Shown: positions 12,895-15,890 of the stretch, one piece after another
Layout: every line of letters starts with the position of its first letter
Numbering within the stretch: the first letter of the stretch is position 1
Assembly: GCA_947624965.1 (NCBI GenBank)
Contig: CANQMN010000008.1
Span: forward strand, 1 to 64,000
Source: an uncultured Clostridia bacterium
GTDB taxonomy: Bacteria; Bacillota; Clostridia; Christensenellales; Borkfalkiaceae
Length of the DNA stretch: 64,000 nucleotides
Direction of reading: 5' to 3'
Program-made: the position numbers and the translations under genes
Notes under the pieces: generated by a model
What the model was told of the DNA's origin: nothing
Seen by the model: only the letters and a program-made list of their open reading frames with translations
Databases searched by the model: none

Positions 12895-14559
12895 TTAACG
12901 GAGGATCCAGACGGACAACCCGCAGAAGATGATGAGCGAAAGCGCGTCGACGATGGTCGTGATGAACGGCGAGGCGACGGCGGCGGGGTCGAGCTTTATC
13001 TTCTTCACGAACAGCGGGAGGAGACACCCGACGAGCTTCGCGATGACGATGGTGCAGAACATCGCGAGCGAGACGACGGCGCAGCGGCGCAGCGTATAGC
13101 CCTCGTACCCGAAGATGAGATTGTCGATGAGCATGAGCTTTCCGAAGCACGCGACCGCGAGCGTCGCGGCAAGGAGAAGGGAGACGCGGAACTCCTTCCA
13201 GAGCACTTTTGCCGTGTCCCGCGTGGTGAGTTCCCCGAGAGCGAGCGAGCGGATGACGGTTACGGAGACCTGCGAGCCCGAGTTGCCGCCCGTGTCCATG
13301 AGCATGGGCACGCAGGCAAACAGCACGGGGCTGATGGCGTTGAGACTGCTCTCGAACGTGTTGATGATGAGCCCCGTGAACGTCGCGCTGATCATGAGGA
13401 TGAGGAGCCACGGCACGCGGTTCTTCCAGATGGAGAACACGCTCGTTTTGAGATAGGGCTTGCTCTCGTGCAAAACGCCCGCCATCGCCTCGATATCCTC
13501 GGTGTTCTCTTCCTCGATGACTTCCATTGCGTCGTCGACGGTAACGATGCCGACGAGCCGCCGCTCGTCGTCTACGACGGGAATGGCGAGGAAGCCGTAA
13601 TCGGAGATCTTCCGCGCGACTTCCTCCCTGTCGTCATGGGTGTGGACATAGATGACGTTGTCCTCCATGATGTCCTCGACGTGCGCCAGCTTATCCGCGA
13701 GCATCAAATCTTTCGCCGTTACGAGCCCGAGCAGTTTGTTCGCGTCGTCCGTAACGTAACAGGTGTAGATGGTCTCCTTGTCGATCGCCTGCGCGCGGAT
13801 ATGGTCGAACGCCTCGTCCACGGTCATGCCGGGGTGGAAGCGGACGAACTCTATCGTCATGATGCTCCCCGCGCTGTCCTTGGGGTATTTCAGGATCTCG
13901 TTGATGAAGGCGCGCGTCTCGCTGTCGCTCTGGGCGAGCAGACGCTTGACGACGCTCGACGGCATCTCCTCCACGAGGTCCACGGTATCGTCGAGGAACA
14001 GCTCGTCCATGACCGCCTTGATCTCGACGTCGGTGAGCTTTTGCAGAAGTTTTTCCTGTGTGTCCGGCTCGATCTCCACAAACATTTCCGCCGCCAGATC
14101 TTTGGGAAGGATGCGGAACAGCACGGGGAGGTCCTCCTCCTCCGCGCTCTCGAACACGGCGGCGAGGTCGGTCTCGTTCATCGAGGAGAGAAGCGGCTTC
14201 AACACGGCGAAGTTCTTCTCTTTGAGGAGCGCGAGGATCTCGTCCTCCTCCGCAATGCGGCGGGCGACTTCCTCGGGCATCTCCTCGATGATGTCGACGG
14301 TGTCCTCGACGGACACGTCCTCCATGACCTCTTCGAGCTCATCGTCGTTGAGCCCCGCGACGATCTTTTGCTGGACGGACGCGTCCAACATCACGAGCGC
14401 GTCCGCGAGCAGGTCGCTGTCGAGCGCGCGGCTGAACGGCACGAGATCGCCGTCGCCGAGCGCGGACAAAATATGCGCCGCCTCTTCGGGCTTTTTCACC
14501 GAAGCGGCAGCGCTTTCATAATCCTTTTCTTGCAGGAACTTGTTGATCGTTTCATCCAT
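12895..14559 (-). CDS. mgtE: Magnesium transporter MgtE
   Basis: A 554-residue MgtE channel. The acidic N-domain (about 1-230) is built of MgtE repeats such as DDELEEVMEDVSVEDTVDII; a CBS pair follows (about 240-365, including GIVTVDDAMEVI), the magnesium-sensing module; then five membrane helices (about 385-554) with the DTGGNSGSQ pore signature. It imports Mg2+ and closes when cytosolic Mg2+ binds the N and CBS domains. The ATG at 14559 has GGAGGCGGAG upstream. It is preceded by a 22-codon leader ORF on the same transcript; no M-box was found. Confidence 0.95.
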   Translation of the reverse strand: MDETINKFLQEKDYESAAASVKKPEEAAHILSALGDGDLVPFSRALDSDLLADALVMLDASVQQKIVAGLNDDELEEVMEDVSVEDTVDIIEEMPEEVARRIAEEDEILALLKEKNFAVLKPLLSSMNETDLAAVFESAEEEDLPVLFRILPKDLAAEMFVEIEPDTQEKLLQKLTDVEIKAVMDELFLDDTVDLVEEMPSSVVKRLLAQSDSETRAFINEILKYPKDSAGSIMTIEFVRFHPGMTVDEAFDHIRAQAIDKETIYTCYVTDDANKLLGLVTAKDLMLADKLAHVEDIMEDNVIYVHTHDDREEVARKISDYGFLAIPVVDDERRLVGIVTVDDAMEVIEEENTEDIEAMAGVLHESKPYLKTSVFSIWKNRVPWLLILMISATFTGLIINTFESSLNAISPVLFACVPMLMDTGGNSGSQVSVTVIRSLALGELTTRDTAKVLWKEFRVSLLLAATLAVACFGKLMLIDNLIFGYEGYTLRRCAVVSLAMFCTIVIAKLVGCLLPLFVKKIKLDPAAVASPFITTIVDALSLIIFCGLSVWILR

Positions 14560-14610
14560 AACTCCGCCTCCACGCGTATTTTAAGAAATTCGGCGCGGAC
14601 AGAAGGAGCC

Positions 14611-14648
14611 ACGGACTCTATGCGGAAAGATACGCCGCGAAAGTCCGT
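14611..14648 (-). promoter_or_regulatory. Nested hairpin within the mgtE leader ORF
   Basis: Outer stem ACGGACT (14611-14617) with AGTCCGT (14642-14648); inner stem GCGG (14622-14625) with CCGC (14635-14638). A ribosome pausing after the Pro-Asp-Pro codons would cover the outer stem's upstream arm on the mRNA. A TCCGC just downstream can also pair with GCGGA near the mgtE start. Function is inferred. Confidence 0.4.
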
Positions 14649-14686
14649 TGCGTCCTTGGGTCCGGGTTGATACTTCGTCCCTTCAC
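14618..14686 (-). CDS. Leader ORF upstream of mgtE, candidate regulatory peptide
   Basis: A 22-codon ORF (GTG start, TAG stop) in the mgtE leader, beginning about 25 nt after the predicted transcription start. AGGAGG sits eight bases before the GTG, as good a ribosome-binding site as any gene here. The peptide starts MKGRSINPDPRTQ and ends in AAYLSA. The Pro-Asp-Pro core recalls Salmonella MgtL (MEPDPTPLP), in which low Mg2+ destabilises the translating ribosome and switches on the mgtA transporter gene. A nested hairpin covers the second half of the ORF. That the ORF is translated and senses Mg2+ is inference; the ORF, its site and its position are direct observations. Confidence 0.6.
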   Translation of the reverse strand: MKGRSINPDPRTQRTFAAYLSA

Positions 14687-14717
14687 GGTCGTTTCCTCCT
14701 TGTTTTTCTCTACTAAT

Positions 14718-14746
14718 ACTTTATTCCAAAGTGCGAAAAAAGTCAA
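14718..14746 (-). promoter_or_regulatory. Promoter of mgtE
   Basis: Minus-strand TTGACT (14741-14746), 17 bp, TAAAGT (14718-14723). The start near 14711 gives a leader of about 150 nt that includes the whole small ORF. Confidence 0.55.
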
Positions 14747-14771
14747 TGATTTTGCGGCAATTTTTCAAATG

Positions 14772-15512
14772 TCAATCCCAAAGGAAATAGCGCAAAAGCG
14801 CGAAGAGTAGAAGAAGCAGCACGGCGGCGATCACGGATGCGAGCGCGATCGCGTCCCGCTTGCCGAACGCCCTCCCCTCGGGCGAGAGCTTGGCGTTCAC
14901 CCGCTCGATCGCGCGGGAGATCCGCTTGTACACGAAGAAGCTCACGACGCCCGCGATGAGACAGCGCATTACGTTGAAGGGCAGAACGGAGACCCACAGG
15001 TAAAACGTGTAGAAATTCGCCTGCGTAATGTTCGGAAAGAGCCCGCTCATCATGCCGAGAAGGGGCTGCCACGAGCCGTCGAACATGATGTAGACGTAGA
15101 AGGGAATGAGAATGAGACGGTTGGCGAGAATGGCGACGGCGACGGAGGAGACGGAGCCGACGGCAAGCGCGAGGATCGCTCCCTTCATGGAGTGCATGTG
15201 CTTGTAGATGAGCCCCGCGGGAAGAACGAACCCGAAACCGATGAGAAGATTCGCGAGCTCCCCCACGAACGCGTTCGCCGTTCCGAGACAGACCAGCTTG
15301 ACCAAAATTTTCACGACGACGATGAGGCACCCCGAAACGGGACCGAGGGCGAACGTTCCGAGAAAGAGCGGAATGTCCGAAAAGTCAAATTCGAGAAAGC
15401 CCGGGAAGGCGAACGGGAGCGAAAACTTTGCAATGTGCAACAGCCCCGCGAGCGCCCCGAAGAGCGCGATCATCACAATTCTCGTCGTACTGAAAAAACG
15501 TTTGTCCTGCAT
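14772..15512 (-). CDS. ribU: Riboflavin ECF transporter S component RibU
   Basis: A 246-residue membrane protein with about six helices, of the RibU type: substrate-binding subunit of an energy-coupling-factor transporter for riboflavin. FDFSDIPLFLGTFALGPVSG and the GELANLLIGF segment match the family. The C-terminal tail adds a seventh hydrophobic stretch. It lies directly behind an FMN riboswitch with a terminator, which confirms the substrate. The shared EcfAA'T energising module is not in this window. GAGGTGAG precedes the ATG. Confidence 0.92.
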   Translation of the reverse strand: MQDKRFFSTTRIVMIALFGALAGLLHIAKFSLPFAFPGFLEFDFSDIPLFLGTFALGPVSGCLIVVVKILVKLVCLGTANAFVGELANLLIGFGFVLPAGLIYKHMHSMKGAILALAVGSVSSVAVAILANRLILIPFYVYIMFDGSWQPLLGMMSGLFPNITQANFYTFYLWVSVLPFNVMRCLIAGVVSFFVYKRISRAIERVNAKLSPEGRAFGKRDAIALASVIAAVLLLLLFALLRYFLWD

Positions 15513-15523
15513 GTTCTCACCTC

Positions 15524-15550
15524 AAAAAAACGCACCCCAAAGGGGGCGCG
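15524..15550 (-). terminator. Riboswitch-controlled terminator before ribU
   Basis: On the minus strand GCGCCCCCTTTGGGGTGCG folds into a GC hairpin followed by seven T, ending just before the ribU ribosome-binding site. FMN binding to the upstream aptamer should favour it. Confidence 0.85.
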
Positions 15551-15555
15551 AAAAA

Positions 15556-15668
15556 ATTCTTTTCTCATCCGGACTATACCGTCGGTACGGGAATTTCACC
15601 CGTTCGGGGGCTCTACGCCCTTCGCAGACTTTACTGCCGGTGGAGACTTTCACTCCGCCCCAAAGATC
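15556..15668 (-). ncRNA. FMN riboswitch (RFN element)
   Basis: The minus strand shows the RFN blocks in order: GGGGCGGAGTGAAAGTC, CCACCGGCAGTAAAGTCTGC, a variable arm, GTGAAATTCCCGTACCGAC and GGTATAGTCCGGATGAGA. It lies directly upstream of the terminator and ribU, so FMN should repress riboflavin uptake. Confidence 0.95.
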
Positions 15669-15890
15669 GTTCGCAAAATTCTTTTTCACAGCGCCCTGCG
15701 GGCGGCATGCTGCGGGCAAAGAAATTTGCGAGGATTGAAGTTGTACATCTCTTCGCGGTCCGCCCGCGAATAGGACGTTCTCAAAGTAAGTGAGCGCGAA
15801 ATATCGCGCAAACTGCGCGCGGCGGCGGGAGACCCTGCGCCGCGCAGGATGCTTCCCCTCCCCCAACGGGGAAAAGAAAGCTATCGAAAG
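15669..15890 (-). other. Long unexplained leader before the FMN riboswitch
   Basis: About 215 nt between the predicted transcription start and the aptamer hold no recognised gene or RNA. A hairpin with a CCCC/GGGG stem and GTT loop lies near 15855-15875. A 20-codon ATG frame (15705 to 15764 region) lacks a ribosome-binding site. Confidence 0.4.

Follow-up and report, generated by a model that had tools for sequence, protein, structure and literature searches.

The mgtE gene in the window, by which we mean the whole 64,000-nucleotide stretch that was analysed (from a draft genome of 1.79 Mb in 34 contigs), is preceded by a leader that probably places Mg2+ uptake under ribosome-read control. 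Our favoured reading, held with moderate confidence, is that this leader is a translational attenuator that would read the position of a ribosome on a short upstream open reading frame (uORF). The attenuator architecture is well supported by comparison with related leaders, and we infer in addition that mgtE responds to the leader and that the nascent peptide senses Mg2+. Judged by its sequence, the window's leader belongs, as a branch, to a wide clostridial family of apparent uORF attenuators before mgtE. The features of the locus are as follows (SD, Shine-Dalgarno sequence; P0, P1, P2 and Poff, helices).

12895..14559, minus strand: mgtE (PF01769, PF03448 and CBS domains; TIGR00400, 459 bits).
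14718..14746, minus strand: putative promoter, TTGACT-17-TAAAGT, directly 5' of the leader (consensus scan, 9 of 12 positions matching).
14695..14700, minus strand: AGGAGG, the SD of the uORF, 8 nt 5' of the GTG at 14686 (sequence).
14618..14686, minus strand: uORF of 22 codons, GTG to TAG, MKGRSINPDPRTQRTFAAYLSA (sequence; frame-preserving spacing in relatives).
14671..14680, minus strand: conserved core GGACGAAGTA, codons 3-5 (Gly-Arg-Ser) and the next base (codon 4 CGA in 59/60 and codon 5 AGT in 60/60 related leaders).
14682..14690, minus strand: 5' strand of P0, over the uORF start, GACCGTGAA (covariation; found by RNAalifold unprompted).
14633..14641, minus strand: 3' strand of P0, in the late uORF, TTCGCGGCG (covariation and RNAalifold; 7 of 9 pairs form in the window).
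14660..14666, minus strand: 5' strand of P1, CCCGGAC, codons 7-9 (swap test and covariation).
14594..14600, minus strand: 3' strand of P1, GTCCGCG, 3' of the uORF stop (covariation; 6 of 7 pairs form in the window).
14622..14638, minus strand: P2 hairpin, GCGG...CCGC, at the uORF end, with one strand common to P0 (covariation).
14605..14610, minus strand: anti-SD, GGCTCC, the 5' strand of Poff (swap test z -5.2 in 60 leaders; exact register set by eye).
14562..14571, minus strand: mgtE SD region, GGAGGCGGAG, the 3' strand of Poff (sequence and swap test).

The uORF and its AGGAGG lie 5' of mgtE just as the first-pass annotation had described them (14686-14618, minus strand). That annotation also pointed to a hairpin covering the latter half of the uORF. 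The minimum-energy fold does contain it, but the stability of the 187-nt leader does not exceed that of its shuffles (z -0.49; 60/200 shuffles fold at least as well), and a hairpin seen by eye is therefore no evidence by itself. Support for structure comes instead from covariation in relatives. A scan of the leader found no terminator-like site between the uORF and mgtE. The next gene upstream of mgtE encodes an ECF-type substrate-binding transporter component behind an FMN riboswitch (window positions 14772-15671, minus strand), and is likely to serve riboflavin uptake.

Among 96 distinct mgtE upstream regions from the genus and its near relatives, 89 carry an SD-preceded uORF and seven have none. 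Sixty genus-type leaders were chosen by the pattern M[KE][GVA][RP]S; their uORFs have 20-27 codons, begin with GTG or ATG and stop 39-65 nt 5' of mgtE, and all 60 have an SD, partly by selection, since the uORF finder demanded an SD and a start codon. The spacings between conserved blocks inside the uORF fall into a single class modulo 3 in 60/60 and 57/60 genus leaders, and in 27/27 and 26/27 leaders of a sister genus (a set without L015 and L137, which carry a third kind of uORF). Spacings 3' of the uORF stop, in contrast, are spread over the modulo-3 classes, 21/20/19 and 21/20/19 in the genus and 10/11/6 and 9/6/12 in the sister genus. Thus, the frame is kept inside the uORF and is free after the stop, a signature of translation, which suggests that the uORF is a leader ORF translated in cells. 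The earlier claim that a conserved leader peptide precedes an mgtE lacking an M-box is supported.

The conserved part of that peptide is not the one first singled out. The first-pass annotation had drawn attention to a Pro-Asp-Pro core, and had put forward conservation of the Asn-Pro-Asp-Pro codons in relatives as a check; the core is present in the window's uORF, but it occurs in 1 of the 60 genus-type leaders, that is, in this species alone. What the genus conserves is the N-terminus, MKGRS. Codon 2 is AAA or AAG in 59/60, codon 3 is GGN in 59/60 (third base A46 G6 C5 T2), codon 4 is CGA in 59/60 and codon 5 is AGT in 60/60; residues 4-5 are conserved partly by selection, given the pattern used, but their codon choice is not. 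Residues 2-12 of the genus peptides show neither an acidic excess (D+E 0.109, vs 0.138 in the window's long ORFs) nor an excess of Pro (0.038 vs 0.047). The sister-genus peptide differs, being mostly MSDYH..SVDPLS, and is Pro-rich (P 0.152).

Three further observations concern the distribution of the leader. Two mgtE genes of the same genus have no leader (L115 and L132), and by eye a promoter and SD lie immediately 5' of the gene. Two Oscillospiraceae mgtE leaders (L061:910-1010 and L084:359-460) encode METAGRSSRSH... and have GGCCGAAGTAGT in common with the window's genus; their uORF runs into the start of mgtE in another reading frame. Three genomes of another family (f3/g51; L183, L184 and L185) have the element together with an mgtE that is 76-80% identical to the window's, owing either to transfer or to misbinned contigs.

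The helices were assessed in two ways. In a swap test, which compares strands of the same leader with strands exchanged among leaders and which, like our covariation statistics, treats leaders as independent and ignores kinship, P0 (uORF start with late uORF) gave z -10.0 in the 60 genus leaders and -8.1 in the 27 sister-genus leaders. The corresponding values were -7.5 and -3.4 for P1 (codons 5-11 with the post-stop strand), -5.2 and -0.3 for Poff (post-stop strand with the mgtE SD), and -6.4 and +0.9 for P3 (codons 12-18 with the post-stop strand), which is absent from the sister genus. Pairing of the late uORF with the post-stop strand reached z -3.1 in the 60 genus leaders, and four control pairings in the same leaders were no better than swapped strands. 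Between the uORF start and the post-stop strand, pairing was worse than with swapped strands (A:D z +2.7, 60 genus leaders) and so found no support.

On the genus alignment, the P0 and P1 columns are 82.9% paired, with 65 cells in which both sides have changed, and their covariation is 0.288 vs 0.167 in shuffles (0/500 reach it); every slid register is lower in both paired cells and covariation. The same helices in the sister genus are 88.6% paired, with covariation of 0.293 vs 0.183 in shuffles (0/500). P2 tops all shuffles on three of five measures on the genus alignment, which gives no support for P3. Poff is 90.7% paired in the sister genus and near-invariant there, so that its covariation is not above shuffles; RNAalifold, unprompted, returned P0 in the genus and the sister genus, and Poff in the sister genus. 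P0 and P2, each of which covaries, have one strand in common and are thus mutually exclusive helices overlapping the uORF. Poff, which would hide the mgtE ribosome-binding site, covaries in the genus. P0 and P1 cross, and could form a pseudoknot rather than alternative helices.

These helices could be linked to the ribosome as follows. With no ribosome on the leader, the uORF start would pair with the late uORF (P0) and the post-stop strand would pair with the mgtE ribosome-binding site (Poff), giving weak mgtE translation. If a ribosome stays on the earliest codons, or drops off them again and again, P0 would be broken and the downstream strands could pair together (P2, P1 and probably P3); this pairing would capture the anti-SD strand and mgtE would be freed. 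A ribosome moving on would cover the P1 strand, and mgtE would close. It is at the N-terminal peptide, conserved as MKGRS in the genus and as MDxxPLP or MDx..GR in relatives, that a ribosome would hesitate or fall off; going by the accounts of MgtL and mgtQ, low Mg2+ is the most plausible condition for this. Destabilisation of the ribosome by the MgtL route is not obvious in the genus, because its peptide has no acidic or Pro excess.

A ribosome model estimated the cost of opening the mgtE SD by folding leaders with the ribosome footprint kept unpaired; it was run codon by codon on 30 of the 60 genus leaders and on 19 of the 25 leaders of the GR group described below. A ribosome at codons 1-3 lowered the median SD-opening cost in each of the four groups modelled, the drop ranging from 0.6 to 3.5 kcal/mol. 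For the genus and sister genus, a ribosome at codons 9-11 put the cost about 2.3-3.2 kcal/mol above its ribosome-free value. A footprint over codon 9 raised it in 47/60 genus leaders and lowered it in nine, and raised it in 20/27 sister-genus leaders and lowered it in none. Shuffling the P1 region cut the mean codon-9 rise from 3.25 to 0.84 kcal/mol in the genus and from 2.35 to 0.10 kcal/mol in the sister genus, and with a P1 region swapped in from another leader the rise was 1.28 and 0.84 kcal/mol, respectively. In the PLP group (below) and the GR group, a ribosome past codon 7-9 restores the ribosome-free value, without further closing of mgtE. The model therefore predicts that a ribosome hesitating early would open mgtE and that its onward movement would end the opening.

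Similar leaders are common across the class. Among 129 clostridial mgtE genes (the 30 best matches and, ranked by E-value, 99 of those that followed on a list of limited length, minus three studied before and genes that were interrupted or at contig edges), 73 have an SD-preceded uORF of 12-60 codons that begins, at ATG or GTG, with Met-Asp or Met-Glu, vs 1/129 on the reverse strand. Any SD-preceded uORF was found in 104/129 of the upstream regions vs 26 on the reverse strand, and a Met-Asp/Glu uORF precedes 2/34 long ORFs of the window. A loose PLP pattern is matched by 23 of the 73, and 22 have an early Gly-Arg (one Gly-His), with a CGA codon in 19. MgtL-like MDxxPLP starts are frequent in mgtE leaders class-wide, and some read MDxDPLP; the initial description of the peptide as MgtL-like thus suits the class, but not the window's genus, which lacks Asp/Glu or Pro enrichment. 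In PLP leaders the codons used for Leu and Pro differ from one leader to the next, which points to the peptide as the conserved feature.

The helical architecture recurs in these groups. In the swap test, PLP leaders (n=29, including a few variants added by hand) gave z -7.9 for the uORF start with the downstream strand and -5.2 for the downstream strand with the mgtE SD; GR leaders (n=25) gave -8.7 and -4.0 for these pairings and -2.6 for codons 3-13 with the downstream strand, and all other pairings in the two groups lay between -1.5 and +2.2. In an alignment of 19 of the 29 PLP leaders, selected for alignability (A4), a 10-bp P0 shows 96.3% pairing and 26 double changes, against 62.4% and 16 in the best slid register, and P2 shares three columns with P0 and has 12 double changes. 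Each of the two exceeds all 500 shuffles in paired cells, double-changed cells and covariation.

The window's mgtE has no M-box, as first reported: Rfam at gathering thresholds finds the FMN riboswitch alone in the whole window, and at E up to 10 over 14000-15000 it returns seven weak matches, with no M-box (RF00380) among them. Other members of the taxonomic family do have an M-box 5' of mgtE (L024, L028 and L058). The premise that an M-box is the norm before a Firmicutes-type mgtE holds only in part, as 15/129 surveyed leaders have one, called by a purpose-built profile grown from three Rfam matches, not by Rfam itself. Eight leaders apparently have both an M-box and a Met-Asp uORF less than 160 nt from the gene (L257, L258, L264, L267, L277, L293, L309 and L312), out of 12 double cases; in the other four, the uORF lies some 300 nt upstream and may fall within the M-box.

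The leader keeps company with Mg2+ transporter genes. A covariance model of the genus leader (R1) finds a single strong place in its own genome, this locus (next best, 18.8 bits), and in the family as a whole (301 genomes) each of the 32 places with E <1e-8 adjoins mgtE; four weaker ones do not. Weak R1 places in G700, G042:C2, G066, G172:C2 and G214 (L186-L190) were dropped, having neither mgtE nor a similar uORF. R1 misses the sister genus save for one weak place and R2 matches the sister genus alone, and these counts therefore understate the family. Run against 291 genomes of the class with an E limit of 0.01, R3, a model of the 19 PLP leaders, has 38 matches; 35 adjoin mgtE, and 19 of the 35 are its own training leaders. 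The best place without mgtE (E 1e-4; L352:283-402) encodes MDADPLSFNQ..., has a 12-pair P0 and ends 15 nt 5' of a gene for the CorA Mg2+ transporter, R3 having been built from mgtE leaders only. Two other places (L353 and L354), with neither mgtE nor a similar uORF, were set aside as chance.

Relatives of this CorA were found in 12 of 41 genomes, picked mostly for their mgtE leaders. Besides L352, two have a candidate leader, MDTDPYPNRS in L358 (R3 E 0.01, ending 128 nt 5' of corA) and MECDTGNSS in L359 (missed by R3), both of which could be chance; the other corA relatives in these 12 genomes have none. The association with corA thus has one clear case. A leader common to two non-homologous Mg2+ transporters would make Mg2+ the likeliest signal, few as the corA cases are, and Mg2+ sensing by this leader is probable. 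A broader proposal, whose chances we put close to even and if anything slightly short of that, is that Clostridia have class-wide Mg2+-sensing nascent peptides (MDxxPLP, MDx..GR, MSDYH..DPLS and MKGRS) that precede mgtE and in some cases corA, arose convergently with MgtL/mgtQ of enterobacteria and act through a competing-stem translational switch, in places beside an M-box, with the window's genus having a remodelled Gly-Arg-Ser form. We found no earlier account of such a clostridial leader family in the literature searched, which covered few subscription papers.

Other readings of the leader need to be weighed against the attenuator. One, which we regard as unlikely, is an RNA-only riboswitch, in which P0 and P1 would make a pseudoknot, binding would take place at the invariant CGAAGUA core and the uORF would be incidental. 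The crossing of P0 and P1, both of which covary, would fit such a riboswitch, as would a CGA AGT that is nearly invariant despite available synonymous codons. Yet frame-preserving spacing is confined to the uORF, the third base of Gly codon 3 varies (A46 G6 C5 T2), and PLP leaders of the same architecture lack the CGAAGUA core and keep the peptide while codons vary.

It is rather improbable that the uORF senses slow decoding of CGA and AGU, or charged tRNA, instead of Mg2+. PLP leaders of mgtE do without CGA/AGU codons, and the downstream gene is always a Mg2+ transporter, one corA included, even though CGA fills the Gly-Arg site in 59/60 genus and 19/22 GR-type leaders (other Arg positions, 17/74 and 21/127), and in the window AGT makes up 3.5% of Ser codons and CGA 9.4% of Arg codons.

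A uORF that senses nothing and merely tunes mgtE through constitutive translational coupling would be a long shot. Mg2+ is as yet a candidate signal, and seven near leaders lack a uORF, among them L115 and L132, where a promoter and SD seem by eye to stand immediately 5' of the gene, all of which would suit coupling; however, the uORF stop lies 39-65 nt 5' of mgtE in the genus, and coupling does not call for covarying helices that exclude each other at two ribosome-binding sites. A homologue of Salmonella MgtL working by transcription termination is very improbable, for although the MDxxPLP starts of relatives resemble the EPDP start of MgtL, PDP occurs in 1/60 genus leaders and the pairing partner is the mgtE SD, not a terminator, of which the scan shows no likeness between uORF and mgtE.

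As a translational attenuator, our preferred reading, the mgtE leader is predicted by the ribosome model to follow the logic of Salmonella mgtQ more than that of MgtL. The 8-codon mgtQ uORF before mgtB is described as overlapping competing stems that hide or free the mgtB ribosome-binding site, with control at translation, a role for early acidic residues, and an open form favoured by ribosomes at early codons (PMC8092293). The clostridial leader likewise has a uORF overlapping alternative stems, one of them hiding the transporter's ribosome-binding site, and early-codon ribosomes that are predicted to favour the open form. It differs in transporter, phylum and the greater length of its uORF, the likeness drawn here being one of architecture, and its helices come from covariation, whereas those of mgtQ are described from mutants.

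MgtL, the mgtA leader peptide, is reported to have an EPDP start, with acidic residues that cause ribosome drop-off at low Mg2+, and to act via a Rho-dependent terminator (PMC11282234, PMC6460261). It resembles the present leader as a short peptide before a Mg2+ importer, and class-wide relatives share a Met-Asp start with Pro at 5 and 7. However, the window's genus has MKGRS in place of the acidic, Pro-containing N-terminus, which PLP-type relatives have in part, and the covarying helices here suggest that the ribosome-binding site of mgtE is hidden, a mechanism unlike the Rho-dependent control of transcription reported for MgtL.

The M-box (ykoK leader, RF00380) also regulates mgtE in cis, but the new element has a uORF and stands at a locus without an M-box. 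In Mycobacterium tuberculosis, an M-box with a conserved uORF is reported before pe20 (PMC12810186); both are Mg2+-linked leaders with a conserved uORF, but there, as described, the M-box controls the uORF, and here there is no M-box. The mgtE motif SRC-65-1, a riboswitch candidate reported only in Thioalkalivibrio (PMC11109978), is likewise a structured mgtE leader that includes the SD; compared by description, which in the account available mentions no uORF, it differs from the clostridial leader.

Leader uORFs that depend on Mg2+ have been described for mgtA and mgtB of enterobacteria. If the same design is used across Clostridia on unrelated transporter genes, then the ribosome itself would be a recurrent Mg2+ sensor, and the control of many mgtE genes that have no M-box would be explained. 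A natural set of dissimilar peptides (PLP, GR and MKGRS) would also make the nascent-chain causes of hesitation or release at low Mg2+ testable.
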